The notes below the pieces were generated by a model. That model worked only from the letters and a program-made list of their open reading frames with translations, made no database searches and was not told where the DNA came from. A stretch of 64,000 nt of DNA. It comes from Hydnum rufescens UP504 (lineage: Eukaryota > Basidiomycota > Agaricomycetes > Cantharellales > Hydnaceae). Below are positions 6,561 to 58,572 of this stretch, in pieces (position 1 is the first letter of the stretch; every line of letters starts with the position of its first letter). The stretch covers positions 601,373 through 665,372 of the forward strand of contig MU128911.1 of the NCBI GenBank assembly GCA_014904985.1. The letters run 5' to 3'. The translations under genes and the position numbers were made by a program.

Positions 6561-6590
6561 AGCACACTTATCATATCAAACCAGTCAGCC

Positions 6591-6890
6591 ATAATTGTAT
6601 ATCTAGTTAGGCCCTTTTGCCTTGCTTTTATTTAGTCTAAGAGCGGGTTTTTAGGTGGGGCCCACTGGGTGATTTCACAGCATGAGACAAGGGGCCCCTG
6701 GGGGCCCCTCTCACCTTAGACTGGGACTTAGAGATTCTCAGACTTACAGGACAGCAGGCCATACAGGCTTATCAGGGATAATGTGTTAATTATTATCAGT
6801 GGGGTTTCACCACAGTCCCATGCTTTGTTCTTATTGACTTGTTTATTTATTTATTTATTTAAAAATTCACAAAAAACATACCACACACCT
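6591..6890. other. outer flank of module A with GC-rich palindrome
   Basis: No gene is seen. It holds the candidate terminal repeat (about 6598), the palindrome GGGGCCCCTGGGGGCCCC at 6692-6709 that recurs at 10652-10669, and a short TTTA microsatellite at about 6842-6861. Confidence 0.4.
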
Positions 6891-7163
6891 GCTTGGGTGG
6901 GTGTGTAGTACCATCCATAGAAATTTAAAAAAAAACTATCTAATAGTACCACACCTGCTTGGGCAGGTGTGTGGTACTGTCTATAAAAATTAAAAAATTA
7001 AAAAAACACTATCTAGCAGCACCACACACCCACTTAGGCAGGTGTGTGGTACTGGGGATGTCACTTTGCACTTCACCATTGGGCACTGGTTACAGGTTGC
7101 CATTGGGGTTCTCCCTCCCCCATGGTTGCATGGTTTCACTTGGTGGGGCTGTGGCTTCAGTCC
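6891..7163 (-). repeat. outermost left units of module A, degenerate
   Basis: Three exon-type palindromes occur close together (about 6891-6921, 6950-6979 and 7020-7051, each CACACC.../...GGTGTG), separated by A-rich sequence without recognisable introns. The array seems to have shrunk here by deletion. A normal exon segment follows to 7163. Confidence 0.5.
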
Positions 7164-7266
7164 CTATGATAATAAATAATAAGTTAGTTAAAAAAAGAAA
7201 AACCATGCAAAAGGAGCAGCCCATGCTGCTCCTTTTGCATGGTCATACTTCTAGAGGGCTACTTAC
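7164..7266 (-). other. predicted intron A-left 1 (103 nt)
   Basis: Read on minus: GTAAGT at 7266, branch-like AACTAAC, end TATCATAG at 7164. The internal hairpin has an 18 bp perfect stem, CCATGCAAAAGGAGCAGC (7203-7220) with its complement (7225-7242), and a loop of four. The exon-end palindrome just upstream is at 7277-7303. Confidence 0.6.
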
Positions 7267-7423
7267 CTCAAAAATTACCACACCCACTGAAGCAGGTGTG
7301 GGGTTCATCTGGGACTTGTGCCATGGTTTCAACTCAGTGCCATTTGGGATTTGTTTGGCAGGTGGGTCATCATTCTCCCATGTTCATTCAGCAGGGTCAT
7401 GGGTGTTGGGTCCAGATGACAAA

Positions 7424-7518
7424 CTAGAATAATAAATAATATGTTAGTAACAAAAAAAAAAAGAAAAGCCACACAAAAGGAGCAGCATACACTGCTCCTT
7501 TTGCATGGTTGTACTCAC
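7424..7518 (-). other. predicted intron A-left 2 (95 nt)
   Basis: Read on minus: GTGAGT at 7518, branch TTACTAAC, end TTATTCTAG at 7424. The hairpin core is CAAAAGGAGCAG/CTGCTCCTTTTG. The exon-end palindrome is at 7529-7553. Confidence 0.6.
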
Positions 7519-7676
7519 CTTAAAATTACCACACACCTGCCAAAGCAGGTGTGGGGTTTGTCTGGGGCTTGTGTCATGGTTTTGACTCAGTGCTGTTTGG
7601 GATTTGTTTGGTGGGTGGGTCATCATTCTCCTGTGTTCATTTGGTGGGGTCATGGGTGTTGGGTCCAGATGACAAA

Positions 7677-7773
7677 CTAGAATAATAAATAATACCTTAG
7701 TAACAAAAAAAACACAAGAAAAGCCACGCAAAAGGAGCAGCATATGCTGCTCCTTTTGCACAGTTGTACTCAC
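7677..7773 (-). other. predicted intron A-left 3 (97 nt)
   Basis: Read on minus: GTGAGT at 7773, then a T-rich stretch and the branch-like TTACTAAGG, end TTATTCTAG at 7677. The hairpin stem is GCAAAAGGAGCAGC with its complement. The exon-end palindrome is at 7783-7812. Confidence 0.6.
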
Positions 7774-7873
7774 CTTAAAATTACCACACACCCACTGAAG
7801 CAGGTGTGTGGTACTGTCTTTGGGCCCTAACCAGTTGGGCCCCCTCATTGGGCACCTGGGACAAAGCCATAAC

Positions 7874-7976
7874 CTAGAATAATGAAAGTTGTTAGCAAAG
7901 AAATTACAAATAGCACAAAAAGAGTAGCTTTTGCTACTCTTTTTGCACCATTGTACCTACTAGAATAAAAACTCAC
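7874..7976 (-). other. predicted intron A-left 4, next to core A (103 nt)
   Basis: Read on minus: GTGAGT at 7976, branch GCTAAC, end TTATTCTAG at 7874. The hairpin GCACAAAAAGAGTAGC/GCTACTCTTTTTGC differs from the other units by a paired change (GAGTAGC/GCTACTC instead of GAGCAGC/GCTGCTC). The exon-end palindrome is at 7983-8012. Confidence 0.6.
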
Positions 7977-8050
7977 CTTATGACCACACACCTGCAGCAG
8001 TGGGGGTGTGGTCATTTCTGTTGTTGGGTGTGGCTGCGTGGTTGTGAAAC

Positions 8051-8367
8051 TCAACACTGGCAATTGCCAATACTCAAGAAGCACCCAAGTGCTGGTGCTA
8101 CAAACACAGCACACATTAATAGCAAGCATGTATATGTGAAATAAATACTATATAATAAATATGAGCCCAGGAAAATTTGAAGAAGATGATGATAACTCAT
8201 GCCTTATTGAGCTCTGACTCATTATCATCATCTTCTTCAAATTTTCCTGGGCTCATATTTATTATATAGTATTTATTTCATGTATACATGCTTGCTATTA
8301 ATGTGTGCTGTGTTTGTAGTGCTGGTACTTGGGCGCTTCTTGAGTATCAGCAATTGCCAGTGTTGAA
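8051..8367. repeat. central palindrome of module A
   Basis: This is an inverted repeat with arms of about 145 bp (8051-8195 and 8222-8367), nearly identical, separated by 26 bases containing GAGCTC. The arms pass directly into the first exon unit on each side, so the two outward arrays share the same first exon. Both arms encode the start MLAINVCCVCS in opposite directions (minus from 8129, plus from 8288). The arrangement suggests a divergent promoter or a fold-back centre; neither function is proven. Confidence 0.75.
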
Positions 8368-8465
8368 TCTACATCTTGCTTCCATTTATGCAACCACAAC
8401 AAGCCACCACCCAAAAAGGCAAGTGCATGACCATGCACATGCCACTGTGGGTGTGTGGTCACAAG

Positions 8466-8571
8466 GTGAGTGTTTCTTTTTAGTAGATACAATGGCACAA
8501 AAAGAGCAGCAAAAGCTGCTCTTTTTGTGCTGCTTTGGAACTTTTTACTAATGTGCCTTTATTTATTTTAG
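8466..8571 (+). other. predicted intron A-right 1 (106 nt)
   Basis: GTGAGT at 8466, hairpin GCACAAAAAGAGCAGC/GCTGCTCTTTTTGTGC (16 bp), branch TTACTAAT, end TTTTAG at 8571. The exon-end palindrome is at 8429-8460. It is the mirror counterpart of the intron at 7874-7976. Confidence 0.6.
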
Positions 8572-8812
8572 ATTGAGGCTGCATCCAATGCATGACGAGA
8601 GCCCAAACACCAATGCAATGCACAGCAATGTGACATGGTAGCGCAACACCTGGCAATGCAACATGGCAATGTGCCAAACAGCAACACACCAAATGGCAAT
8701 GCACCAAATGGCAATGCACCAAATGGCAACATGCCAAATGAGGACGTGACTGCATCAAATGATGCCCCAGGAATCACACACCCACCACGGCAGGTGTGTG
8801 GTTCCATATCAG

Positions 8813-8921
8813 GTAAGTTCCTGCCCCCCCCAGTAGCTACAGCCATACAAAAAGAGCAGCAAAAGCTGCTCTTTTTGCATGGTGTTCTATTCTTAACTAA
8901 TTTAAAACTATTATTTTGTAG
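8813..8921 (+). other. predicted intron A-right 2 (109 nt)
   Basis: GTAAGT at 8813, hairpin CAAAAAGAGCAGC/GCTGCTCTTTTTG, branch TTAACTAAT, end TTTTGTAG at 8921. The exon-end palindrome is at 8773-8802. The exon before it (8572-8812) has a local (GGCAATGCACCAAAT)n-type minisatellite at about 8660-8740. Confidence 0.6.
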
Positions 8922-8960
8922 GTATGATGATAACCTGCAAAATGACAAGAGCAACACCAC

Positions 8961-9729
8961 TATGGATGCCTTTGGTCTGGTTTAAACCTTGGGAACCTGG
9001 GTTTAAACCTAAACCAGACCCAGGTCTGGTTCCATTGGGGTCAGGTTTCATTCAATTTTCCTCTGGTCTGGTTTAGGTTTTTCCCTTGCCCTGAATCCAA
9101 AACCTGGTTCAAACCCAGGTTTAAACCTGAACCTGAAAGGTAGGGTGTACCTCCCAGCCTATGTACTTTCACCCTTATTTCTCCACATATTATCATTATC
9201 ATCCTTCTATACATTCAATTCCAGAAGTAAACCTGCACACAGTACTGTAATTTCAGAGTCAAAAGTTGCATGACTCTGGAATCTAATGGGGTAATCTGTG
9301 CAGGTTACAAAGCACATGGCTCTGGGATCAAATCTGGAGATTTTCACAGGTTACTGTAACTCAGTCTAGGGTCACATGACACAATTTAGTTAGCTAAGTT
9401 CCATCCTCTGGAGATATGTAAGCAGAAAATTGATGTGAAGGAGGGGTGTGAATGAGATATGAATGGAAAATGGGATGCAAAGGAAGTGGTCAACACAAAG
9501 ACTCACACAGAGAGTCCAGATAGTCTGTAGTACTTACTAAAATGTTTTGCTTCTCCTATATCTCAGGTTTCAGGTTTAAACCTGGTTTAAACCCAAACCA
9601 AACCACTCTGGAACCAAACCTCAGGTCAGGTTCAGGTTTTGCCCTCATGGGTGATTTCAGGTTCAGGTCTGGTTTAGGTTTTGCCCAAATTGGCAAAAAC
9701 TGAACCAAAACTGAACCTAGGCATCCCTA
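8961..9729. mobile_element. 769 bp non-autonomous hAT-type element (MITE)
   Basis: The ends are TATGGATGCC (8961) and GGCATCCCTA (9729), inverted and hAT-like. An imperfect 8 bp target duplication flanks it (AACACCAC at 8953-8960, AATGCCAC at 9730-9737, six of eight matching). Subterminal AGGTTCAGGTTT/AAACCTGAACCTG motifs occur at both ends. The left 430 bp closely match 4317-4740, so the hAT remnant there is probably the parent. It has no coding frame. It interrupts the third exon unit of module A. Confidence 0.6.
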
Positions 9730-9909
9730 AATGCCACACATGGCAACATGATGCAGCAACATGATACATGATACAGCAACATGACATGCCAATGATGCAA
9801 CATGTGGCACCACACCAAATGAGGATGCAGCCCACGGCAATGCACCAAAGAAGGGCCCAGAATCACACACCTGCCACAGCAGGTGTGTGGTTCTGGTTCT
9901 ATATATAAG

Positions 9910-10016
9910 GTAAGTCCCCTCCCCTCAGTAACTACAGCCACGCAAAAAGAGCAGTGAAAGCTGCTCTTTTTGTGTGGTTTTTAATTTCTAACTAACTTAA
10001 AAATTTTGTCTTGTAG
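9910..10016 (+). other. predicted intron A-right 3 (107 nt)
   Basis: GTAAGT at 9910, hairpin CCACGCAAAAAGAGCAG/CTGCTCTTTTTGTGTGG (one G-U pair if read as RNA), branch CTAACTAAC, end CTTGTAG at 10016. The exon-end palindrome is at 9862-9892. Confidence 0.6.
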
Positions 10017-10178
10017 GTCTCCATGTCCCCTGCAAACAAATACAGAGGCAAAACCCCAGTCCCCCCCTCCCTCATCAATGTCTGAACAACAGGCACCCAT
10101 ACAAACCCCCATATGTATGAGTGAGAGTACATGGCCCCAGTACCCCACACTGCTGCAGCAAGTGTGGGGTACTACAAG

Positions 10179-10290
10179 GTTTTTTTTTATTTTTTATTTA
10201 TTCCTTATTCTTGTGGCAAAAAAAGAGCAGCATAAGCTGCTCTTTTTGCACTGCATTCATGTTTAACTAATTTGTTAACTACTTCTCTAG
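10179..10290 (+). other. predicted intron A-right 4, damaged donor (112 nt)
   Basis: The hairpin (GCAAAAAAAGAGCAGC with complement), branch TTAACTAAT and end CTTCTCTAG at 10290 are normal. The expected donor at 10179 reads GTTTTT, so it probably cannot be spliced. The exon-end palindrome is at 10141-10171. Confidence 0.45.
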
Positions 10291-10496
10291 ATATTGGACC
10301 AGAACCTGCATGAACCCCTGACCACAGACCTGCTGAACGACATGCCCAGAATGAAAACCAGGAATGAAACCATGCATGACTGCACAAACAAAAACTGGCA
10401 ATGAACTGCAAAGGCCCACATGAATGAAAACCATGAGTGACACCCCCTTGAGGGATCACCCAACTAGAACCCAGGCCCAGACGGGGTGAATTCCAG

Positions 10497-10646
10497 GTAA
10501 GTACATTTTCTTTAGCCACACTTGCACAAGAAGAGCAGCCTCTGGCTTCTCTTCTTGGGCACAGGGTGAGCCCCACTGGGTGAACCTATGGATGTATATA
10601 CTAATATAATACTAATAATAATAATAAATTAATAATGCATAATCAG
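10497..10646 (+). other. outermost right unit of module A, intron end doubtful
   Basis: GTAAGT at 10497 and a divergent hairpin (CAAGAAGAGCAGCC/GGCTTCTCTTCTTG, one mismatch) are present. The expected branch and acceptor are replaced by AAT/ACTAAT microsatellite-like sequence; an AG at 10645-10646 is the best acceptor candidate. The upstream exon lacks a clear end palindrome. Confidence 0.35.
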
Positions 10647-10695
10647 GCAGGGGCCCCTGGGGGCCCCCACATGTAAAGACCTAGTTAGATATGAT

Positions 10696-10841
10696 AAATG
10701 CAATGCTCATGATATCTAATATGATGTGGAAAAGTGATTGACCAGCCTGGAACCCTTGGGATTTTTGACAGCTGCGCACATAGGTACTACATGGGGGGCT
10801 TCATCCATACTCTTGTTGGGTGGATTTTGGCACAGGGGGGC
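10696..10841. other. inter-module stretch
   Basis: No gene, hairpin or repeat unit was recognised between the candidate right end of module A and the first intron of module B. Confidence 0.4.
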
Positions 10842-10944
10842 CTAGAATAACAACTCATACATTATGTTAGTAAAATCAAAGAGAAGCAGCACCAAAAGAG
10901 CAGCTGGTGCTGCTCTTTTGGTGCCACTGCAAGGAGAAACTCAC
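10842..10944 (-). other. predicted intron B-left 1 (103 nt)
   Basis: Read on minus: GTGAGT at 10944, branch TTACTAAC, end TTATTCTAG at 10842. The hairpin is GCACCAAAAGAGCAGC/GCTGCTCTTTTGGTGC (16 bp). The exon-end palindrome at 10951-10984 is one of the best: 15 bp arms, loop TCTG. Confidence 0.6.
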
Positions 10945-11114
10945 TAGATGGTACCACACACCTGCTCTGGCAGGTGTGTGGTACCATATTTCACTTGTCA
11001 TTGCATATAGTTGAGGGCGGGCTCTGATTGGGTCTTGAGTGGCTGCATGCATCCATAGTTCGTCCTGGGTCTCACCCATGTTCTTGTCAGATGGGGTTTC
11101 ATGCAAGGAGGGAC

Positions 11115-11225
11115 CTCCAATAATAAATAACATGTTAGTAAAAAAAATAAAAGAAAGGTAGCACCAAAAGAGCAGCTGGTGCTGCTCTTTTGGTGCCATT
11201 GTACAGGTTGGGAGGAGAAACTCAC
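11115..11225 (-). other. predicted intron B-left 2 (111 nt)
   Basis: Read on minus: GTGAGT at 11225, branch TTACTAAC, end TTATTGGAG at 11115 (AG preceded by G, weaker than the usual CTAG). The hairpin stem matches B-left 1. The exon-end palindrome is at 11232-11264. Confidence 0.55.
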
Positions 11226-11401
11226 CAGATAGTACCACACACCTGCCACAGCAGGTGTGTGGTACCATATTATGCCTGTCATCACGTGGGTTTGGGGGCT
11301 GTGCATGTATGGTCTTGCATGGATTTTGGCCCTTGTTAATTTCCAGGTGGCCCCCAGGTTTTGTATCGTCATCATTCAGGTCAGGGGTGAGGGCCTTAGA
11401 C

Positions 11402-11509
11402 CTAGAGTGGGGCAGTATGGCATGTTAGTGAGAGTGTTAGAAAAGTGTAAAGAGGGCAGCTTTTGCTGCCCTTTTTACATGGGTGTATCTAGCAGGGGGG
11501 GGGACTCAC
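11402..11509 (-). other. predicted intron B-left 3, next to core B (108 nt)
   Basis: Read on minus: GTGAGT at 11509, branch CACTAAC, end CACTCTAG at 11402. The hairpin GTAAAGAGGGCAGC/GCTGCCCTTTTTAC carries a paired change (AGGGC/GCCCT). The exon palindrome upstream (11511-11546) is degenerate. Confidence 0.55.
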
Positions 11510-11621
11510 TTGTGTACTCATGGTGGTGAGTGTGTGGTCCTGTTCCAGTCTCACAGGATCCTGTTGGTTGCATGTCCTATATATGAATGGGGTGGATTAG
11601 GTAAGCATCAAAACAAACACT

Positions 11622-12247
11622 GAATGCCAGGAGTTTCTGGGCTTGAATGAGTGCCCAATTAGGGGCAGTACAAAGCTCATATGGATAGATAGTAGATACC
11701 TAGATAGAAAATAAAGACTAAATACCAAATATCTGTCTAAGACAGGTGAGGAAATGAGAGGTAGTCTGTTGGATTGCACTAAGGCACCATGTGCAAAGCA
11801 GAATTGGACAGCTCCCATGCATTATAATTGGCCAAATTTAAGTATCTTAGTGGCATGTATGTATATTGCATGGGTGATGAAACTAATGGGACAATTGAGC
11901 TAATTTTCAATTTCTCACACCTTCAATTTCCTATTTAGGAAATTGAAGGTGCGAGAAATTGAAAATTAGCTTGATCATCCCATTAGTTTCATCACCCATG
12001 CAATATACATACATGCCACTAAGATACTTAAATTTGGGCCAATTATAATGCATGGAAGTTGCCCAATTCTGCTTTGCACATGGTGCCTTAGTGCAATCCA
12101 ACAGACCACCTCTCATTTCCTCACCTGTCTTAGACAGATATTTGGTATTTAGTCTTTATTTTCTATCTAGGTATTTACTATCTATCCATATGAGCTTTGT
12201 ACTGCCCCTAATTGGGTGCTCATTCCAGCCCAGAAACTCCTGGCATT
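11622..12247. repeat. central palindrome of module B
   Basis: This is a nearly perfect inverted repeat with two 311 bp arms (11622-11932 and 11937-12247) and a four-base centre within TTTCCTATTTAGGAAA. Differences are few and mostly single transitions. Each arm encodes the same short frame in opposite directions (minus 11818-11597, plus 12052-12249; shared peptide AQFCFAHGALVQSNR). It is unrelated in sequence to the core of module A but holds the same position: outward arrays begin at both ends. Confidence 0.8.
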
Positions 12248-12339
12248 GAGTAGCATCTTCAGATCTACTCATCAAGGTGCCTGAAGCAAGCACAACACAG
12301 TGCCACACACCCCCTGGGGCAGGTGTGTGGCACTATTAG

Positions 12340-12448
12340 GTGAGTTTTTCCTTCATGGGGTGTACCATGACACCAAAAGAGCACATTAGTTGCTCTTTTG
12401 ACATTGTCTTCAGTTTTTTTTTTTCTTACTAATGTCTTATTATTCTAG
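12340..12448 (+). other. predicted intron B-right 1 (109 nt)
   Basis: GTGAGT at 12340, hairpin reduced to AAAAGAGCA/TGCTCTTTT, T-tract, branch TTACTAAT, end TTATTCTAG at 12448. The exon-end palindrome is at 12301-12332. Confidence 0.6.
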
Positions 12449-12589
12449 GTACCTCCACTGTGCAATACCCCCACTGATGAGGTTCAAGATGAATATGAAT
12501 GCACACAGGCACCTGGACCCTGATTGTCCACGACAACAAACTAAATGCACAACCACACACCTGCTCTGGCAGGTGTGTGGTAATAGTTG

Positions 12590-12710
12590 GTAAGTTTCTC
12601 CCTGCGGCATGTACAACAGACAACAGCACCCAAAGAGCAGCAGTAGCTGCTCTTTGGGTGCTGCTTGTGTTTTTTTTTGTTTTAAACTAATGTATTATTT
12701 ATTATTCTAG
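12590..12710 (+). other. predicted intron B-right 2 (121 nt)
   Basis: GTAAGT at 12590, 18 bp hairpin CAGCACCCAAAGAGCAGC with its complement (paired change CCCAAAG/CTTTGGG), T-tract, branch AAACTAAT, end TTATTCTAG at 12710. The exon-end palindrome is at 12552-12581. Confidence 0.65.
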
Positions 12711-12884
12711 CTCTCCCCTTGATGCACAAAACCCCACCCAACAAGAATGCAAGATGAAAAATGGACATGTGCAGCCACCCAGAACCCAATCCAAGAACCC
12801 AGCACCCAAACACCCACAACCTACACAACAATGGATGAAATACAGTACCACACACCCCCTGCAGGGTGTGTGTGGTAATACTGG

Positions 12885-12993
12885 GTAAGTCCTCAATTAC
12901 AGGACATACAGCAGCACCAAAAGAGCAGCAGAAGCTGCTCTTTTGGTGCTGCTTGTGTTTTTTTTTGCTGTTACTAATGTGTTGTTATTCTAG
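12885..12993 (+). other. predicted intron B-right 3 (109 nt)
   Basis: GTAAGT at 12885, 17 bp hairpin AGCACCAAAAGAGCAGC with its complement, branch TTACTAAT, end TTATTCTAG at 12993. The exon-end palindrome is at 12845-12877. Confidence 0.65.
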
Positions 12994-13159
12994 GTCCTTT
13001 CTCCCACTACGAAACCCTGTCCAAAGCAAGCACATATAAAGCCCAGGGCAAAAACTGAGCATGCACAGCCACCCAAAGGCCCTGCCCCCAAGCACTTGTA
13101 ATGTACACAATGGCTTAAATATGGCACCACACCCACTGCGGCAGGTGTAGTAAAATCCA

Positions 13160-13270
13160 GTGAGTTGTTAATTATGATGTGTACAATGGTGCCAAAAGAG
13201 TTGCAGCAGCAGCTCTTTTGGTGCCACCTGCATCTCTTTTTTTTCTTTACTAATCTATTCACTACTCTAG
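13160..13270 (+). other. predicted intron B-right 4 (111 nt)
   Basis: GTGAGT at 13160, hairpin with an enlarged imperfect loop (GGTGCCAAAAGAG/CTCTTTTGGTGCC, two G-U pairs as RNA), branch TTACTAAT, end CTACTCTAG at 13270. The exon-end palindrome (13123-13150) is partly eroded. Confidence 0.6.
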
Positions 13271-13433
13271 GTGCCTTTTCCCACTGCAAAACCCCACACA
13301 AGGCAGCAGAGACAAAGACCAGGGTGAAACACAGACATACACAGGCACCCAAAAGCCCAGCCCCTGAACACCCATGATGACCACCACAATGAATTAAATA
13401 CGATACCACACACCCACTGCAGCAGGTGTGTAG

Positions 13434-13530
13434 GTGAGTTTTCCATTACTACAATGCCAAAAGAGCAGCACCAGCTGCTCTTTTGGTGTTGTTTGGATTC
13501 TTTTTTTTATTAACATGTTTATTATTCTAG
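13434..13530 (+). other. predicted intron B-right 5 (97 nt)
   Basis: GTGAGT at 13434, hairpin GCCAAAAGAGCAGC/GCTGCTCTTTTGGT, branch ATTAAC, end TTATTCTAG at 13530. The exon-end palindrome is at 13405-13432. Confidence 0.6.
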
Positions 13531-13688
13531 GTTCTTTCTTCCATCATGAAACCTGACAAGGCCCAGAGCAAAATACAGGCACCCATGCAGCCACCCAAGA
13601 CCCTGACCCTCAAGTATCCACAACTCACATGATGACCAATTGAATATGGTGCCACATGCCCACTTCAGCGGGTGTGTGGTAGTATCAG

Positions 13689-13792
13689 GTATGTCTAATC
13701 CCACCAGTGCCAAAAGAGCAGCAAAAGCTGCTCTTTTGGCACCCCTCTGTTTTCTTTTTGTTTTACTGATGTATTATTCTTCATTATTCTAG
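13689..13792 (+). other. predicted intron B-right 6 (104 nt)
   Basis: GTATGT at 13689, 16 bp hairpin GTGCCAAAAGAGCAGC/GCTGCTCTTTTGGCAC (paired changes relative to GCACC/GGTGC of other units), branch TTACTGAT, end TTATTCTAG at 13792. The exon-end palindrome is at 13650-13680. Confidence 0.6.
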
Positions 13793-13944
13793 GTGCCTTC
13801 CCTATGCGAAAACCCACCCAATGAGGACACAGATGAGCCCCCAGCACGAAACTCAATGCACAGCTGCCCAAGTCCTGAGTACCCAGCCCCTGAACACAAT
13901 GATCAAAAAAATCTCATACCACACCTGCTGCAGCAGGTGACCTT

Positions 13945-14053
13945 GTAAGTTTCTCATTATAACATGTGCAACCACACCAGAAGAGCAGCAGTTGCTGCTC
14001 TTCTGGCACTGCTTCTGTTTTTTTATTCACTAACATATTATTGGTCATTGTAG
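13945..14053 (+). other. predicted intron B-right 7, last of the array (109 nt)
   Basis: GTAAGT at 13945, hairpin CCAGAAGAGCAGC/GCTGCTCTTCTGG (paired change), branch CACTAAC, end TCATTGTAG at 14053. The exon-end palindrome is shortened (13918-13938). Only about 20 bases of the next exon remain before unrelated sequence. Confidence 0.6.
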
Positions 14054-14075
14054 ATCACCCCCCTGTGTGAAGACC

Positions 14076-14961
14076 AGCCTGTTAATTCAGTAGTATGGGA
14101 ATTAAGGATTGGGGAGGAACTGGAAGATGGAGGAGGTTCTGGTTCTAATGGATTAGTCCAGTCTGTAGGACTAAGGCCATTTTGTATGGCCTGACAAGTC
14201 AGTAGTTCTTGGAGGGAAAGAGTCTCTATGCCCACAAGGGCAAAGTAGGTGGACTTAGACATTAGGACTGGGGTTGCACAGTGTGTAGTGCGTAATCTGT
14301 AAGTCCACAACTCTGCAAGATGGACAGATGATAGTGGTAGAAAAGATAGATTCCCGGGCATTGCCATGGCTCTTTCCATACAGGTTCTATGACTAAGGAA
14401 GACTATGTAGGAAAGGGGCAATTCCCGGGGCAGCACCAAACTCCTCTGTGAGGAGAAGCTTCCCACTGGTTTGGGCTTAGAAGCTACTGTAAAAGTAATC
14501 TAAAGGATAAAGCCACTATATGGCCTAAGGGACTCAAAATGCCACTAACACAGCCCCCCAGTCCCTTCAGTCATGAAGGTATAATATCTTCAGTCTGCAA
14601 GGGCTGTCTGGCAAGCAATAGGCCCTGCAGACAATTAGACAGGGATTCAGTCCTTGGGCATGCATTGTGACTCATTTTGTCATTTAGAGGATCTGGCAGT
14701 AAGGTCCTTTGAGTTTCGTCCTCTTCCATTGTAGTAATACTTAGCCTCTTGTAGTCTGATGAGGAATCCCATAACAAGTTGAGGATTATGGTCGAAGATG
14801 CTCGTAGTGCATTGTTTGTGGATGCAACTGCATAATGTTGCTCCACATTAGTCAATAGCTCATGGACAAATCTACAATAGGATGTAATGCTCGTCGACTA
14901 GAGGCCTCATAGGGGGAGTTTCCCTTCTTGGTGGTGCCGATGATTGGGATAGGTATGTAGG
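14076..14961 (-). pseudogene. degenerate tail of the C2/HECT cluster, unidentified
   Basis: Two minus frames remain (14466-14038, running into the last array intron, and 14855-14571) with no recognised motif. By position they would lie downstream of the first HECT-like segment. Function unknown; no intact gene. Confidence 0.3.
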
Positions 14962-16069
14962 TTAGTTGTAAGGCGTACTCATCCTCTCTGGCTGTGATGG
15001 TACTTGACTGGACCATTTCGTGGCCTGGAGAGAATCACGGCAGTGAACCTTGGACCAGAGCACTGTCACATTCCTTATTCCTAGCTGGAACTGTCCAGTG
15101 GAGGTATGGTGGAATTTCCATTCAACTCCTTCAAGGGTGTTCTGACCATCCTTTAACATGGATCTGATTGAGTACCAACAGCCAAAGACCATCAGGCATC
15201 AGTCCTGACATATTTCTGGAAGATCAATCGAGGCTTCCAATGGAAAATATTCACAACATTCCTGAGACAAGTTGCAGCCACCGAGATTCACATTTGGTGG
15301 ACCAGCTTCATATTATCTGCCAGAGTTGCTGAATACCATTGTCGTTCATCTTGTATTTGCAATAATCCATGGGCTTCATCCAGTCATCAACATTGATATC
15401 AGGCATGCTACCAATGAACAGCTCAAGCCCATGTTCATCGGAGGCCTTGGTAAGTTCTTGTGGGATAAGCTCACCATATCCAGACAGGAGGGCACTGAAT
15501 TGTTCATGTATACGACACAAGATATGGTATTCAATGATGATCTTGAAGATGAGATTGGTAGTGTCATTTTCCAAAATCAAGGTTACATCATGAAAGAGGT
15601 CCGTATCAATACTCTCAAGATCAGAGAGTATAACCTCTCTTCTCAGGATTGTCTTGTAGGAACTAATGGCGAGGTAGACACCCAGGGGTTGCTGATGGGC
15701 CATAGTCAAACTGAGGTATCTTTGGATGAATTCTGTGTGGCCTTCTAACACCACACATCTGACAGGTTTCATCTGGGATTGGGGTGGCCCAGCAGTCTCC
15801 AAGGGTTTTTGTCTGGCTTGGGACAAGTCTTTGTCTGTCGCGCTCGTGGTGAGCCCACTAGTGCATGAGAGTTCTATTGTTGACCCAATCATCGTCAGAC
15901 CTGACTCATCATCAATAGCACTACTATCTTGGTTTTCTAGACCTTGGTGGCCCCCTGGCCATGGACCATCACAGGCATCAGAACAGAGTGAAGTTGCAGT
16001 GAGGACCCTTTTTGATGCTTCCTCATCCTGTTGACAAGTAAGCTCAAAAATAGCCTCTTTCTTAGGCAT
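14962..16069 (-). pseudogene. HECT-type E3 ubiquitin ligase-like pseudogene, copy 1
   Basis: HECT domains load ubiquitin on a C-lobe cysteine and pass it to substrates. On minus, a serine/acid-rich linker (16069-15760) is followed by N-lobe motifs (SYKTILRREVILSDLESIDTDL, split here: SYKTILRREVIL and SDLESIDTDLF), then LILENDTTN, an internal deletion that brings EYHILCRIHEQF directly after it, ELIPQELT, and the C-lobe entry LELFIGSMPDINVDDWMK. Reading continues past 15308 in decayed form (QQLWQIIW). The loop usually holding LPxxHTCFN, with the catalytic Cys, is not recognisable. The 760-base open frame is therefore a deleted, inactive copy. The family match is from remembered HECT consensus. 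Confidence 0.65.
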
Positions 16070-16354
16070 ATAAGCAGTATATGCTTCTGGCCAATGATCC
16101 TTTCTTAGGAACAGCTGTTCCGGGCCTTGGGTGGAGGTTCCTTGGTCCGACCCCTCTAAACGGGGACCCGGTGTGCTCGATACATCACAGAGTCATTGAC
16201 TCATATGGGAACACATGAGTTTCATCCTTTGGTAATCATTTGGTTGAGGGTCACTTCCCAGATCAACCTTGCTCCTAGGCCTCATATCCCATGCGTCATG
16301 CAGGACTAGTTGTGCATTGGTAATGCTCTTCCATCCCAATTGCAGATAAGGGCT

Positions 16355-18478: not shown

Positions 18479-20188
18479 TATAGAAGAAGGGTTGGGAGCT
18501 CCAATGACTGTCAAATCAAAATCTGGTTCAGCCAGTGTGTGGATGGGAGACTGTATTTCTGTTGTTATTCGTTGGGCTGGTTCGCTTCAATGGTTGATCA
18601 CACTCTGCAAGACGTGTATGGTGTTCAGTGGAGAATAGGAAGGGATATGGACTAGCTGTAGTCAATGATATATCATTTGGGATGCTTGTAGAAAGGCTTA
18701 TATGTCATGTGGGATGCTTATAGAAAGGCTTATACGTCGTGTGGGATGCTTATAGAAAGGCTTATACGTCTGGGATGCTTGTAGAAAGGCTTATATGTCT
18801 GGGATGCTTGTGGAAAGGCTTATACATTGTTCGTGTTGTGTTGGTCTGTTTACTGATATTTGTGTATTCTTGTTTATGTTCTCCTGGTCAAAATGCGGAT
18901 ATCTGTGGGTTATAGACTGGTCAGTACTTGGTTAGTCTTTGTTAGTATGTTTCTTTCTTCTTTCTTCAGAACCTGATATGTATTTCATTATGCTTACTTT
19001 TCCTTGGATGTCCAGCAACTCTAACCTTAGGTCCTGCAACTATCCTTGGCTTTAGTGATTCGCGTAGAGGGCTACCAGTGGCTTTGTCTCAACAACCTTG
19101 AAGATGACTTAGCTCCAGATGGCTTATAGATAGACTGTTCTTTAGAGGCAAGCAGAAAAGTTGACAGTGGTTGACAGTAATGATTCCCAGAGGAGATTAT
19201 TGTGTGGGGGTACAGGAAATCTACCAGCTTTTATACCTTTCTGAAGGTGGCTGTGTTTAAGAAATATGACTCCCCCATGGGTGAGTCATATGTGAGTCAT
19301 AGGTGGGAACAAAAGAAAGATAACAAGATGATGTAATAATGCGGTCATAGCTGAGTCATTCATAAAGAGAACAAAAGAAATCATGAGGAGTGATGTCATA
19401 GTGATGTCATTCATAAAGAGAACAAAAGGAATCATGAGGGGGGGTGATGTCACCAATTTGCTGAGCATGTGGAATGCTTGGAGCATGTGGTCACTGACCA
19501 TGTGGGGCATTCTGGAGGCGAAATGAAAGGATATCTCCGGGTTTTGGAGATTAATTTGAGCATAGTCCAGTGGTTAAGGTGTTTTGTTGTTGGTTGATAA
19601 TGGGGACAAGTGCATGGGATGGGATTTGATGCAGAAACAGCAGTTTGCATCTGTAATAGACGTTATTGGTATCATTAGATGCGGATTTTTCACAGCTTTC
19701 TGGGCGCAGTGGTTCCGAGAAGATCCGGTGTAAACTGACAGAGAAATTCATTTTTTACTGATGGGTGTTGATTCTGATAGTAATGTCGCTCTGTAGAGTT
19801 CAGTTTTGATCTGTTCTTCGCGTGCTCGGTACCGTCGGATGCGGATTTCTTATATCTTTCTAGGCGCGGTTGTTCCGAGAGGATTGAATGCGAACTGATG
19901 GATAAATTTGTTTTTTACTGGAAATTCCGGATTTTGGTAGTAAAATTGGCCTGGAGAGTGCAGTTTTGGTCCGTTCGACTTGTGTTTGGTATCGTTCGAA
20001 AGGTGTGAATTGTAGCTTTCTAAGAGTTATATGGGCGTACCTCTCCGATCAAAACTGACGGAGTTATAGAACGAATTCGATTTCCACGTGTAGCCGTAAT
20101 TAATTTCATAATTGGTCATGTGATCGTCCAAAGGCTGGGAGTGGTGTGATTTCGCGTTTTCTGATACTGGATGTTTTTATCTTCCACA
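18479..20188 (-). repeat. gypsy B-type LTR, full length, inside the HECT cluster
   Basis: In minus orientation it starts TGTGGAAGATAAAAACATCC (20188) and ends CTTCTATA (18479). It is one of three full-length copies (others 45114-46769, 59208-60831). It has five copies of a roughly 30 bp minisatellite (18679-18829), a tRNA-like A/B box pair on plus (about 19563-19635) and two to three diverged copies of a roughly 190 bp internal repeat (about 19655-20090). No target duplication is visible (flanks TATGG and ACAGC), so it may have arisen by recombination rather than simple insertion. Confidence 0.7.
18679..18829 (+). repeat. LTR minisatellite, five copies
   Basis: Units begin GGGATGCTTGTAGAAAGGC and are 29-32 bp long. 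The B 5' LTR has three units (about 45305-45395) and the solo LTR two (about 59403-59455), so copy number varies among LTRs. Confidence 0.75.
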
Positions 20189-30331: not shown

Positions 30332-30370
30332 GCCTATGCACAGGTAGTACAAAAGATTGCCCGAGGATCG

Positions 30371-32080
30371 TTGGGAGACAAGGACTTAGCGGATCAGGCG
30401 TTAACGAAGTCGCGCACATCGGAGATTCCCCCCGAGCCAGATGGTCTGGACGAGCTTTGGGGCCCCAAGACATCTGAGCCTGCAGATCCCGCAATATACA
30501 ATTCGAAAAAGCTAGAGGAGCTTATTGATATAGCTCCAGATGCTCCCCCAGAAATCAAAACGAAGACCCTAGCTCTCATACGTAAGCATCTCCAGGCCTT
30601 CGGATTCGACGACCGCCTGGGAACCCTACAGACGATCTCCAAAATCTGCATGAAGGCAGAGGCTCACCCAGTTTCCATGCCTATGTACGGAGCCTCGCCG
30701 GCAAAACGGCAGGTAATCGATGAGCAAATGGACAAGTGGATCTGCCAAGAAGTCGTGGAACCCTCAAAGAGCCCCTGGGCCACGCCAGTAGTGATAGCGT
30801 ACTGCAATGGGAAGCCTAGATTCTGTGTGGACTACAGGAAGCTCAACGCTATGACTATACCAGACGAATTCCCTATCCCACGGCAAACAGAAATCCTACA
30901 AGCCCTATCCGGATCACAAGTCCTATCTGCTCTCGACGCCCTTGCTGGATTCCACCAGATGAAGATGCATGATGAGGATAAAGAAAAGACGGCCTTCCGC
31001 TCTCATAGAGGACTCTGGCAGTTCAAACGGATGCCCTTTGGTCTGAGGAATGGTCCCTCAACCTTCCAGAGGATGATGCAATCCATCCTCGCCCCCTTCC
31101 TGTGGATATTCTCACTGGTGTACATAGATGATATAGTAGTATATTCAAAATCATACGAGGAGCATCTGGACCATCTCGATCAGGTCCTGCAAGCTTGCAT
31201 GGAAGCCAGATTAACCCTAGCGCCAAAGAAGTGTCACTTTATGTACACCTCCATCCTCCTACTGGGACAGAAGGTCTCCCATCTGGGATTGTCGACCCAT
31301 AAGGAGAAAATCAAGGCAGTCACGAGCTTGGCCTGTCCCCATAATAGAACAACGCTCCAAATGTTTCTGGGAATGGCAGTTTACTTCTCGCATTTCATAC
31401 CCCATTACTCAGAGTGGGCCGCACCATTATTCGAGCTGCTACGAAAAAGCACAAGCTGGACGTGGGGGGCTGAACAAGAATGAGCCTTCGAAGACATTAA
31501 GGAAGGACTCGTTTCAGCCCCTGTACTTGGGCACTCCATGCCTGGAAAGCCATATCGTATATATTCAGACGCCTCTGACATAGCAATAGGGGCTAGCTTG
31601 CAACAAGTACAGCCAATAGCTGTACAAGACTTAAAAGGCACAAAAGTATATGACTGGGTCATTGATGCTCATGCTAAAGGCGAACCAGTCCCGAAGCTAG
31701 CCCGTCAAGTCTCGAAGAACACTAATGATGTTCCCGACCCCAACTCTTGGGCTGAGAATGTGGAAGACATGGTAGTCCACGTTGAGCGGGTGATCGCCTA
31801 CTGGAGCAGATCCCTAAAGTCAGCGGAAAGGAACTACTCAGCAACCGAGAGGGAGGCTCTCGGGGTTAAGGAAGCACTAGTGCGATTCCAGCCCTTTATC
31901 GAAGGAGAGAGGAATATCGTGATCATGGATCATGCAGCCCTGCAGTGGGCCCGAACCTACAAAAATACCAACAGATGTCTAGCGGCGTGGGGGGCAGTAT
32001 TCGCAGCATATCCAGGCCTGGATATAGTTCATCAAGCAGGGATCGTACACTCAAATGTGGATCCCCTTTCCAGGTTATGA
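30371..32080 (+). pseudogene. element A reverse transcriptase and RNase H
   Basis: Same frame as the protease end. Reverse transcriptase motifs: WATPVV and FCVDYRKLNAMT, ALDALAGFHQM, FGLRNGPSTFQR, and catalytic LVYIDDIVVYS (about 31120-31150). RNase H follows: YRIYSDASDIAIGASL, NYSATEREALGVKEA and IVIMDHAALQWA, with the three acidic residues in place. Only a TGA (31481-31483, after GAEQE) and the final TGA (32078-32080) break the frame. The active-site residues are all intact, so the damage is limited to nonsense codons. Confidence 0.85.
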
Positions 32081-42558: not shown

Positions 42559-43174
42559 NNNNNNNNNNNNNNNNNNNNNNNNNNNNNNNNNNNNNNNNNN
42601 NNNNNNNNNNNNNNNNNNNNNNNNNNNNNNNNNNNNNNNNNNNNNNNNNNNNNNNNNNNNNNNNNNNNNNNNNNNNNNNNNNNNNNNNNNNNNNNNNNNN
42701 NNNNNNNNNNNNNNNNNNNNNNNNNNNNNNNNNNNNNNNNNNNNNNNNNNNNNNNNNNNNNNNNNNNNNNNNNNNNNNNNNNNNNNNNNNNNNNNNNNNN
42801 NNNNNNNNNNNNNNNNNNNNNNNNNNNNNNNNNNNNNNNNNNNNNNNNNNNNNNNNNNNNNNNNNNNNNNNNNNNNNNNNNNNNNNNNNNNNNNNNNNNN
42901 NNNNNNNNNNNNNNNNNNNNNNNNNNNNNNNNNNNNNNNNNNNNNNNNNNNNNNNNNNNNNNNNNNNNNNNNNNNNNNNNNNNNNNNNNNNNNNNNNNNN
43001 NNNNNNNNNNNNNNNNNNNNNNNNNNNNNNNNNNNNNNNNNNNNNNNNNNNNNNNNNNNNNNNNNNNNNNNNNNNNNNNNNNNNNNNNNNNNNNNNNNNN
43101 NNNNNNNNNNNNNNNNNNNNNNNNNNNNNNNNNNNNNNNNNNNNNNNNNNNNNNNNNNNNNNNNNNNNNNNNNN
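42559..43174. other. assembly gap (616 n)
   Basis: A run of n inside element B between gag and pol. The retropepsin domain is expected here: just upstream the minus frame reads VEITLGDFLGTAHGPAKI, typical of the region before or at the protease. Long X-filled frames over the gap are artefacts. Confidence 0.95.
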
Positions 43175-43359
43175 AGTATTTTTGCAGGTCCATGGGCTGT
43201 TCCAAGGAAGTCTCCAAGAGTTATTTCAACTGTTTGGTTTAGCACCTTCTTTGCTATTTCCTTGTCTTCACAAGCATCTTGAAAGTCTGTAGTGAAACAA
43301 TATGTTGGAGGATTCTTTGGGATTCATTTCTCTGGTTGAGCTATCTCAATGTCTATCAT

Positions 43360-45149: not shown

Positions 45150-46769
45150 ATCAAAATCTGGTTCAGCCAGTGTGTAGATGGGAGACTGTGTTTCTGTTTA
45201 TTCAAATGGGTTGGTTCGCTTCAATGGTTGATCACTCTCTGCAAGATATGTATGTGTTTATTGGAGAATGGAATGTGATATGGACTAGCAATAGTCAATG
45301 ATATATCATAGATGCTTATAGGAAGGCTTATATGATGTATGAAATGCTTATAGAAAGCCTTATATGTGGAGGATGCTTATGGAAAGGCTTATATGTGTTC
45401 ATGTTGTGTTTGTTCATTTACTGATATTTGTGTGTCCTTGTTTACATCCTCCTAGTCAAAATGGGGATATCTGTGGGCTATAGAATGGTCAGTGCTTGGT
45501 TAGTTTGGTTAGTATGCTTCAATCTTCTTTCCTGACTTGTATTTTGTTATGCTTACCTTTTCCTTGGATGTCCAGCAACTCTAACCTTAGGTTCTGCAAC
45601 TATCCTTGGCTTCAGTATTTCACGTAGATGGCTTCCAGTAGCTTGGGCTCAACAACCTTGGAGATGACTTAGCTCCAGATGGCTTTAGATAGACAGTTCT
45701 TTAGATTATAAGCAGAATGGTAGACAGTAGTTGACAGTGGTTGATTTCCAGAGTGAGGAGATGGGGGGGAACAAGAAAATCTGCTAGCTTATATACCTAT
45801 CTGAAGGTGGCTGTGCATGGAGCAAGAACAAAAGAGTAATAAAGCTATGAGATCATAGTGATGTCATGGGGGAGTCATAGTGGAGTAGAACAAAAGAGTA
45901 ATAAAGAAATGATGTCATAATGCAGTCATAGCTGAGTCATCCATAGAGTGTGATGTCATAGTGATGTCATAGTGATGTCATTCATAAAGAGAACAAAAGG
46001 ATTCATAAAGGGAATGATGTCACTAATTTGCTGAGCTTGTGGAGTAGTTGGAGCATGATGTCACTGGTCTTGTGATGTGTTTTGGAGCTCATGGGAAGCA
46101 AAATTAAGGAACATCTCTGGGTTCTGGAGATTAATCTGAGCATAGTCCAGTGGTTAAGGTGTTTTTGTTACTGGTTAATAAAAGGAACAAGTGCATGGTG
46201 TGGGATTTGATGCAGAGACAGCAGTTTGCATCTGTAATTGGCGTGCTTGGTACCATTCGATGCGGATTTTTAACAGCTTTCTGGGCGCGGCGGTTTCGAG
46301 CAGATCAGATGCGAACTGACAGAGAAATTCATTTTTTTACTGATGGGCGTTGATTCTGATAGTAATATTGTTCTGTAGAGTTCAGTTTTAATCTGTTCTT
46401 CGTGCGCTTGGTACTGTTGGATGCGTATTTTTTATATCTTTCCAGGCGCTGTTGTTTCGAGAAGATTGAATGCGAACTGATGGAGAAATTCATTTTTACT
46501 GGAAATCCCGGATTTTGATAGTAAAATTGGCCTGGAGAATGCAGTTTTGGTCCATTCGACTTGTGTTTGGTACTGTTCGAAAGGTGTGAATCGTAGCTTT
46601 CTAAGCATTATATAGGTGTACCTCTCTGATCCAAACTGATGGAGTTATAGAATGAATTTGGTTTCTGCGTGTAGCCATAATTAATTGTATAATTGGTCAT
46701 GTGATCATCCAATGGCTGGAAGTAGTGTAATTTCACATTTTCTGATACTGGATGTTTTTATCTTCCACA
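45114..46769 (-). repeat. element B 5' LTR, 1.66 kb
   Basis: In minus orientation it starts TGTGGAAGAT (46769) and ends CTTCTATA (45114), directly followed by gag. It contains the minisatellite (three units), tRNA-like A/B boxes on plus (46143-46160 and about 46200-46213), and diverged copies of a roughly 190 bp repeat (about 46230-46610), each with GATGCG...TTTCTGGGCGCG-like sequence. Clusters of GTGATGTCATAG words occur at 45850-46060. Confidence 0.75.
46143..46213 (+). promoter_or_regulatory. tRNA-like A and B boxes inside the B LTR
   Basis: TAGTCCAGTGGTTAAGGT followed about 40 bases later by GTGGGATTTGATGC resembles a RNA polymerase III A box and B box. The solo LTR keeps a better B box (GGGATTCGATGC, 60264-60275). 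The pair is conserved in all four LTR copies. It is on the strand opposite to element B's genes. A tRNA cloverleaf does not fold convincingly. Confidence 0.35.
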
Positions 46770-51008: not shown

Positions 51009-53950
51009 TTGTGATTATTGGGGAAATTCCAGTAGGCAATAATAGCCTATATAAAGTTGAGCATGCCAATGTGGCTGCTAGTACTGTGGACAAAACAATT
51101 AAGCTCTTGGAGCTTCATCGGAGGTCAGGCCACATCTCAATCAACTCAATTCATTCCCTCATCAAAAATAATGTCATCCAGGGTATTAAACTTGTGGATG
51201 ACATTACAGAATTTTCCTGTGATTCATGTGAGTATGGAAAGGCCACAAGGAAAATAATAAAAAAGGAAAGAACAGCACCCCTTGCATCTTCTTTTGAGGA
51301 AAAAATACATACAGATGTCTGGGGGCCATCCCCCATTAACTCACTAGGTGGGTGATTGTATTACATAACATTTACAGATGACATGATGCAATATACAAAA
51401 ATTCAGGTCATATGGACAAAAGACAAGGCCTTTAATGCCTACAAAGACTTTGTAGCATGGGCAAAAACCCAACATGGAGTTCAAATTAAAAGACTTCAGT
51501 CTGACCACAGGGGCAAATATATGAGTACCACATTCAGCACATTCTTACATAACCAGGGGACAGAATGACGATTAACTACACATGATACTCCACAACATAA
51601 TGGAGTTGGCAAGTCCCTAAATAGAAGAATCCTTGAGCAAACCCGCACTATGTTGCATCAATCTGGATTACCCAAAAATCTGTGGGGAGAGGCAGTAAAT
51701 TGGGCCATATGGCTCAAAAACCATACTTCTACATGAGTTTTAGGGAACATGACACCATTTGAATGACTCACAAAAGAAAGACCAAATTTAGGAAATGTTC
51801 CTGAATTGGGCCAATGAGTCTGGGTCCATAATGACTCAGGATCCAAATTGGATGAATGGGCAAATGAGGCATTTTGGGTGGGCTATGATAATGACAGCCC
51901 CCATGCCCATAGAATTTATTGGAAGGGACAGAATAAGATTTCCATTGAATGAAACATCAAGTTTGTGACACCAACAATCAAAATTCCATTTGATATGCCT
52001 GGCTTGAGCTCAAGGTAAAATGCCACATCCTCCACCCCCTATATAAATCCAGATCAGGAAACTGCCCATACGGATCCTAATGGCTCAGATGACAAAAAAA
52101 GCATTAAATCTGGACCATCTACCCCCATTCGCCCCTATATTCCATTGGAAACACCTCCTGTGCTGAAAAGACCTGGCCTGCTGAACCCAAGCAACATTCA
52201 GCATGTGTCCCAAAACCCTTGCAGTATGTACAACACCTTGAACAGGGCAAAGGTACTGTACATGGGTATATGAATTCCAAGCCAGATGATAAAATACCTG
52301 GTGTCAGGGGGAGCACTGCCACCCCTGAAGTTAATTTTGCAAATGACACCATGTATCATATGGAATTCGATGACACTGTCTACAGGGCAATACAAGACAT
52401 TGATGGCAATCCCAAGTCCTTGGAGGAGGCAAACTTAAGAACAGATTGGCCAAAATGGAAAGAGGCCATTGACATAGAACTCAAACTGTTAAAGATGCCA
52501 GAACCTGGGAGGAAGTGCTGTGGCCACAGGGCAAAAATATCGTTGACTGCAAGCTTGTATTCAAAATAAAATGAAAAGCTGATGGTACTATCCAAAAATA
52601 CAAGGCATGGCTTGTGGCCCACAGATTTACTCAAATATACAGTGTTGATTACTACAAAACCTATTCCCCAGTGGCATGACTTGCCAGTTTCCATATGATT
52701 ATTGCAATGGCTGCAGAGAAAGATTGGGAGATTGATTCATTTGACTTTAATGGTGCTTACCTAAATGGTGAATTAGATGCAGACAAAGAGATATACATGC
52801 AATTTCCCCCTGAATATAAACCTCATGGGAAGAACACTATTCTGCAACTACAAAAGACACTCTACAGTCTTAAACAAGCCAGAAGACAATGGTATGACTC
52901 ACTTTCATGGGCACTTAATGATCTCAGATTTAGTGCAAGCCATGCCGACCCCAGTGTTTTCCATATACAAACAAATGGAGAAAAATTAATATTGGCAATT
53001 CATGTCAATGATTGTACATTCACCAGTGCATCAAGAAAATTACTTGATGAATACAAAAAGAAAATCAATGAAAAATATGCCATTATGGACCTAGGGCCAC
53101 TACATTGGCTATTAGGAATTAAAGTCAAATGAGACCATGATTTACAGATGATCCAATTATCCCAAACATCATATATCAACTCAATAGTTACCCAATTCTC
53201 CCTTGGTGATGCAAAATCCATTAACACTCCAATGGAACCAGGGGCCACATATGCCCAAATGGATAATGAAAATAATCCCATGGATATTGAACGGATGAGG
53301 TGTACCCCTTATTGGGAGGCTATAGGAAGCCTTATGTATGTGTCTGTGGCCACAAGGCCAGACATTTCTTTCACCATATCCATGTTATCCCAATTCCTTG
53401 ATAATCCAGGACTGATACATTGGGAAGCAGTTAAATGGGTCATACAATACTTAGCTGGAATGAAAGAATATAATCTCATATATAGCACTGAGCCACATGA
53501 TCTACTTGGTTTTACAGATGCAGATGGGGCCACACAAGACCATAGACATGCCATCTCCAGATATGTGTATCTAATTAATGGTGGAACCATCTCATGGAGT
53601 TCATGAAAACAAGAATTGGTTACTCTATCAACTGCCAAGGCAGAATATGTCACTGCAACTCATGTGGCAAAAGAGGGCATATGGCTACAAAGCCTAATTG
53701 CCAAGTTATTTCATTTTTCCCTTAAACCTACAACTCTCTATTGCAACAATCAGGCCATGATAAAACTCGCTATGGGTGATAATTATCACACCTGAACAAA
53801 ACACATTGATATCCAATTTCACTTTATCTGCCAGACCATTAAAGATGGATCATTTAATTTTGTTTACTGCCCTACAGAGCACATGACAGCCAACATACTT
53901 ATGAAAGCACTTGCAGGTGCAAGATTGGACTGCCATGTCACTGGACTTGG
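51009..53950 (+). pseudogene. copia D integrase, reverse transcriptase and RNase H
   Basis: Pre-integrase finger (LELHRRSGHISINSIHSL, CDSCEYG). Integrase keeps the first two acidic residues (HTDVWGP, LQSDHRG), but the third reads NGVGKSLNRR, Lys in place of Glu. Reverse transcriptase: FDFNGAYLNGEL, YSLKQARRQWYD, and the catalytic box reads IHVNDCTF, one Asp changed to Asn. RNase H: GFTDADGATQDH and LSTAKAEYVT. At least eight internal stops are TGA at places where related proteins have Arg (for example TE*RLT, PFE*LT, GQ*VWV, PVA*LA, VK*DHD). It is thoroughly inactivated by G:C to A:T changes. Confidence 0.8.
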
Positions 53951-58503: not shown

Positions 58504-58572
58504 GGCAACTGGTCAAGTAGAGTGCAAGGTGGCAACAAAGGTTATAGCTGGTGGTGCTTTTCAGTAGGGCAA

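Follow-up and report, generated by a model that had tools for sequence, protein, structure and literature searches.

A putative non-autonomous KDZ-type element of Hydnum rufescens with arms of tandem exon-intron units

Organization of the arrays

The window analyzed here is a stretch of 64,000 nucleotides of the Hydnum rufescens UP504 genome (G000:C3:601373-665372; assembly of 63.2 Mb on 539 contigs). It harbors two adjacent modules made up of tandem units, each of which combines an exon-like with an intron-like part. Such units had been proposed in a preliminary description made from the sequence alone, and a profile search confirmed them: 18 near-full units were detected in four arrays, so that the number of arrays stood while the former count of 16 introns was too low. 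The introns of these units are 95-121 nt long, and all of them start with GT (18/18) and end with AG (18/18). Weak signals are a GTTTTT donor at 10179, a GAG acceptor in the intron at 11115-11225 and a CTAAG branch motif in the intron at 7677-7773. The arrays are oriented -, +, - and +, all reading outward from two palindromes, which supports the arrangement as two mirror modules. Besides the 18 units, there is a terminal half unit at approximately 10485, and the remnants of three exon hairpins lie within 6861-7060. The borders, originally placed at 6880 and 14075, had to be moved to about 6577 and 14081.

Module 1 (6577-10749) is a transposon copy with both ends, termed T1 (at 6577) and T2 (at 10749), as judged by end homology, end motifs (1 and 3 mismatches) and end alignments. 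The T1 end together with the last exon and tail of the left array, including an AATAAA-rich stretch and the three exon-hairpin remnants, covers 6577-7163 on the minus strand. It is followed by the left array (7164-7976, minus strand) with introns at 7164-7266, 7424-7518, 7677-7773 and 7874-7976. The central palindrome (8051-8366) consists of two arms of 145 bp (8051-8195 and 8222-8366) that are 93% complementary. The right array (8466-10290, plus strand) contains introns at 8466-8571, 8813-8921, 9910-10016 and 10179-10290, the donor of the last one being degraded. An unrelated insert of approximately 0.76 kb (about 8961-9720), rich in A/T and GGTTTAAACC, breaks this array; relatives of the insert break another array (L015, 6272-6914). 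The module terminates with the half unit and the T2 end (10485-10749, plus strand). In final units of this kind, located ahead of T2 ends, donor and hairpin are kept and an A-rich stretch replaces ACTAAY. The half unit might represent either a weak final intron or a donor that can join acceptors in the adjacent host sequence. Since many copies have YAG ahead of GGGCCCC, the former is possible, and the notion of an orphan donor was set aside.

Module 2 (10750-14081) is a second copy without recognizable ends, whose part from 10837 to 14081 is 93% identical to a copy in locus L009. Its left array (10842-11509, minus strand) comprises introns at 10842-10944, 11115-11225 (acceptor GAG) and 11402-11509, its central palindrome (11619-12251) two nested arm pairs (arms 11619-11933/11936-12251) that are 95% complementary. 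The right array (12340-14053, plus strand) carries introns at 12340-12448, 12590-12710, 12885-12993, 13160-13270, 13434-13530, 13689-13792 and 13945-14053; the junctions 12589/12711 and 12884/12994, which had been put forward for its second and third intron, are correct.

Abundance of the units in the genome

The preliminary description had suggested a search for further modules. Twenty loci (L009-L028) were taken from the best matches of a DNA search with one window unit and are therefore not a random sample. In the window and these loci, the unit profile gave 302 matches, 242 of them near-full. After removal of four units from the overlap of L010 and L011, 238 near-full units remained, and 237 where one unit without a donor column was left out. 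The intron-hairpin pattern AAAGAGCAGCN4GCTGCTCTTT (up to two mismatches) occurs at 6,164 sites of the genome, compared to none for the reversed control; this number is an undercount since only 188/237 near-full units match the pattern. With a median spacing of 269 bp between units (169 spacings), the sites would correspond to roughly 1.7 Mb or about 2.6% of the genome, if one site is equated with one unit. In IMG/VR, five contigs contained the hairpin, but the unit profile matched the hairpin alone in all five, and the three inspected resemble terminators. Rfam at gathering scores gave no match in the whole window.

Splice signals, hairpins and exons

Among the 237 units, GT was kept in 225, AG in 225 and a branch motif within the last 45 nt in 227. 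Donor, branch and acceptor were all present and in order in 205 units, corresponding to a U2-type arrangement. The introns have a median length of 108 nt, with the branch 20 nt from the intron end. Variation at the signals is not arbitrary. At donor position +3, A (127), G (105) and T (5) were counted in the 238 units; the base preceding the branch A is A (210), G (23), C (3) or T (1), the branch A itself is present in 235/238 units, and it is followed by C (118), T (111), A (5) or G (3). Judged by these counts, the tolerated variation is the spliceosome's own (GTRAGT, CTRAY, YAG).

The constraint on the splice core was measured by comparing changes in core and spacer between pairs of units. 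Without CpG sites, the core/spacer ratio of changes in five distance classes was 0.29, 0.31, 0.24, 0.22 and 0.17. For pairs less than 6% apart, 4/529 core positions and 66/2500 spacer positions had changed (0.29), for pairs 6-12% apart the ratio was 0.31, and for pairs 30-40% apart 89/1238 core and 2282/5327 spacer changes were counted (0.17). With CpG sites the ratios were 0.34 (<6%), 0.35 (6-12%) and 0.17 (30-40%). As the pairs were picked greedily and possibly from one array, the significance of this comparison is only indicative. The splice signals look selected. A random distribution of substitutions over donor, branch and acceptor, named earlier as part of what would refute the exon-intron reading, is not what the units show, and the near-consensus state of the signals first noticed in the window holds for the 238 units.

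Each unit has two hairpins, one in the intron (up to 16 bp) and one at the exon end, adjoining the donor (up to 13 bp). A covariation test was performed with 39 divergent units, after four of 43 representatives had been dropped (window 10139-10290, two of L014 and one of L022). Of 1,109 cells, 90.7% were paired (intron helix 95.2%, exon helix 85.1%), whereas slid structures paired in only 31-51%. Of 29 pairs, 18 had changes on both sides, and in none of the five measures did any of 500 shuffles reach the observed value. Covariation is thus present in the intron hairpin as well as in the exon hairpin. Folding shortens the median distance between donor and branch from 87 to 31 nt (192 units, crude measure).

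The exons look non-coding. The 161 internal exons have a median length of 167 bp, and their lengths modulo 3 are distributed 58/48/55. When exons were joined in the 41 arms that have three or more units, the longest frame was similar to that of shuffles, the lowest values being 1/200 (window 10842) and 7/200. The T content amounts to 16.4% in exons and 38.1% in introns. No long conserved frame was contained in the window's list of open reading frames for the array region. A public gene model (P0121, BS47DRAFT_1357472), predicted at 11817-13364 on the plus strand and located by three tblastn pieces and by eye for the remainder, lies on the right array of module 2. It has the intron 13160-13270 and the acceptors 12710 and 12993 in common with the array; its other donors fall, by eye, within exon hairpins.

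Element ends, palindromes and target site duplications

Homology between loci ends at window positions 6577 and 10749. Two kinds of ends, T1 (...GGCTGACYRRGTTG) and T2 (...GGCTGACCAGSCTG), were distinguished, and an alignment of the two is possible for about 72 bp (12 T1 and 15 T2 ends). The plan of the element is thus T1 end, array, palindrome, array and T2 end, and AATAAA-rich stretches occur in the T1 tails. The end pattern CARCCYRGTCAGCCA (up to one mismatch) was found at 457+459 sites compared to 14+10 in the control, a count that takes in the ends of KDZ elements.

A clear central dyad exists in 13/21 centres between divergent first donors. The distance between the first donors is approximately 0.8 kb where the centre is complete and approximately 0.5 kb in module 1. 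In 11 of the 13 dyad centres the palindrome arms were compared: within a copy they are 88-97% identical, while the right arms of different copies share a median identity of 76% (69-96%, 55 pairs). Hence, each copy seems to keep its arms alike or to have built its palindrome afresh.

The elements are mobile. Perfect 8-bp target site duplications flank L025 (ATTATACT), L026 (GCTCAGCC) and an element at L039 49-4511 (GCATGCAT). For four further ends, the eight neighboring bases were taken, and ends of the opposite kind adjoining the same eight bases were sought throughout the genome. Unique exact matches were obtained for C4, 6.2 kb away, and for C1, 5.3 kb away; C54 had no match in the genome search, C12 none in cis. 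In the fetched regions of C4, C12 and C54 there was no partner end. Altogether, duplications were identified in 5/12 copies tested, two of them predicted ahead of the search (two of four predictions). T2 ends directly adjoin another array at window 10749, L028 8177 and L021 5114, which indicates that copies at these loci are often nested or rearranged. As the arrays are dispersed and possess inverted terminal repeats and duplications, they are not satellite DNA, contrary to the initial classification, but arms of transposons.

Relationship to KDZ elements

At L039, the array element sits inside a KDZ transposase locus (Pfam KDZ 3e-43, CxC1 2.6e-11), and a T2-like end (TGGCTGACCAGCCTG) stands after the KDZ gene. 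This association was examined for the 52 KDZ matches listed for contigs C1-C90, using the first 100 exact end sites of the listing. Six of the 52 genes are followed by a correctly oriented exact end at a distance of 1.5-2.1 kb; the three control classes, which comprise ends on the upstream side or in the wrong orientation, gave no case within 2.5 kb. Within 10 kb the control is weaker; among the matches listed there were seven ends downstream in the right orientation, one downstream in the wrong orientation, and two and one upstream. The ends of array elements and KDZ elements agree over the terminal ~15 bp of the alignment, which makes KDZ the probable mover. The array element is not an autonomous KDZ element, the KDZ gene of L039 lying outside it. 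In the genome, at least 154 KDZ domain matches exist, many of them with stops (150 of 584 candidates scored).

Because of the 8-bp duplication, hAT transposases were considered as well. There are 90 hAT domain matches; those near listed ends lay outside the element when compared by eye, and hAT was provisionally left for KDZ.

Other features of the window

A piece of a HECT ubiquitin-transferase domain (15308-16192, minus strand) adjoins module 2. Retrotransposon pieces (30332-31483, 52680-53132 and 57535-58512) encode the reverse transcriptases RVT_1 and RVT_2 and a copia-type gag. Similar tandem repeats with a unit of about 30 bp containing AGAAAGGCTTATA occur in two distant places (18678-18825 and 45310-45397), and so do tandem repeats of the 11-mer GTGATGTCATA (45950-45981 and 60010-60041). 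The sequence from approximately 42560 to 43220 is masked and reads N.

Discussion

The structures described here are probably best explained as a KDZ-type element that is non-autonomous and contains two non-coding transcription units, divergent in orientation and spliced. Each half of the element would be a transcription unit that starts in the central palindrome, runs outward and ends near the inverted terminal repeat, and its transcript would be spliced at every unit, giving short exons and removing introns of approximately 108 nt. We infer that the palindrome acts as promoter, that RNA is made and spliced, and that a KDZ transposase acts on the ends. The intron hairpin may bring donor and branch nearer to each other. 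Tandem duplication would increase the number of units, and in each copy the two arms of the palindrome would stay alike.

Non-autonomous DNA transposons of foldback layout are a known kind. In foldback elements, a palindrome is flanked by long inverted arms that contain tandem repeats, and the array elements share these properties; what sets them apart is the repeat unit, a cassette of exon and intron whose splice signals are constrained. This layout also admits the reading that the splice-like motifs are DNA motifs, e.g., binding sites of a transposase or host factors, and that nothing is spliced. Long inverted arms of tandem repeats and hairpin stems conserved as much as the splice signals would suit it. 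However, the variable positions are those tolerated by the spliceosome (R at +3, Y past the branch A), the signals follow one another in the proper order and at the proper distances, always on a single strand within an array, and the exons are T-poor but the introns T-rich. We therefore regard it as unlikely. Much the same material might stem from an introner family, i.e., mobile single introns that happen to pile up at this place. Fungal introner-like elements are repeated spliceosomal-type introns which, like those of the arrays, contain internal hairpins or inverted repeats, according to part of PMC8469720, and passages of PMC9860276 report terminal inverted repeats in 72/177 introner families assessed and link some families to DNA transposition. 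Yet the array introns are multiplied jointly with non-coding exons as parts of a larger element: the exon is included in the repeated unit, the duplications flank the whole element rather than the intron, and three of three seemingly isolated hairpin sites lay in arrays. No insertion of a single intron was seen at the three sites checked, and we regard an introner family as very unlikely.

Constraint on the splice positions is seen already in pairs of units less than 6% apart (4/529 versus 66/2500), which would also fit a non-coding RNA locus that was adopted by the host and whose splicing is kept for host use. Thousands of units in many copies, frequent nesting and truncation, and the low identity shared by many copies leave such an adoption highly improbable. 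An originally coding host gene that was captured by a transposon and amplified within it would fit the public gene models on the arrays (P0121 in the window, P0122 elsewhere). We give this origin almost no credence, as the lengths of the 161 internal exons are distributed 58/48/55 modulo 3, the frames of the 41 spliced arms are like those of shuffles and the open frame of P0121 is obtained partly via donors in exon hairpins (by eye). Coding exons are accordingly not supported.

Returning to the spliced KDZ-type element, several observations weigh against it. No target site duplication was found at the flanks of module 1 (6577/10749), and 7/12 copies tested lack one, namely module 1, L028, L021 (5114/9713), L023, L040, whose ends are both of the T2 type and form no proper T1/T2 pair, C54 and C12. 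A clear dyad is absent from 8/21 centres, including L025, L026 and L027; since L025 and L026 carry duplications, the palindrome is not needed for insertion. In palindromes, covariation can also come from one arm copied onto the other, and so covariation alone does not prove selection on RNA. In close pairs, constraint on the intron stem equals or exceeds that on the splice core (6/1261 at <6%). In the AG-exclusion test, AG was counted 19 times versus 50.6 expected, but GA 24 times, so that this test has no discriminating power. The profile demanded a near-full match and thereby favors intact acceptors. Past ~15 bp the KDZ ends diverge from T1 and T2, and KDZ elements were compared by their downstream ends alone.

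With regard to the KDZ (Kyakuja-Dileera-Zisupton) group, part of PMC12730594 describes 8-bp duplications for Zisupton and, for Laccaria Kyakuja, 7-bp duplications and CA..TG ends without inverted repeats. The array elements likewise have CA..TG ends and 8-bp duplications, and the terminal ~15 bp are common to both. They differ by the lack of a transposase, by inverted repeats of about 72 bp and by arms of exon-intron units. KDZ transposases probably move the array elements in trans, a conclusion that the difference of the ends beyond ~15 bp leaves indirect.

A benefit of introns is conceivable from work on Cryptococcus, likewise a basidiomycete, where most of the genes tested accumulate less RNA once introns are removed, with a cumulative effect of intron number and position (PMC3744415). 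By analogy, stacked introns could raise the RNA of the element, and the introns may be kept because they increase RNA accumulation cumulatively in a basidiomycete. Stalled spliceosomes set off silencing in Cryptococcus, and escape from such silencing would be another possible gain. It is a tentative and rather doubtful extension of this idea that the transposon is selected as an RNA gene, multiplying its cassettes to boost RNA or to evade silencing, and that it may be a nursery of host introns. No description of a transposon whose body consists of tandem exon-intron units was found in open PMC text, which does not establish absence from print. Provided that it is transcribed and spliced, the element would represent a DNA transposon that has no protein and owes the maintenance of its body to selection on splicing. 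Two questions are thereby made testable, why a non-coding mobile element needs introns and whether its units seed introns of genes.

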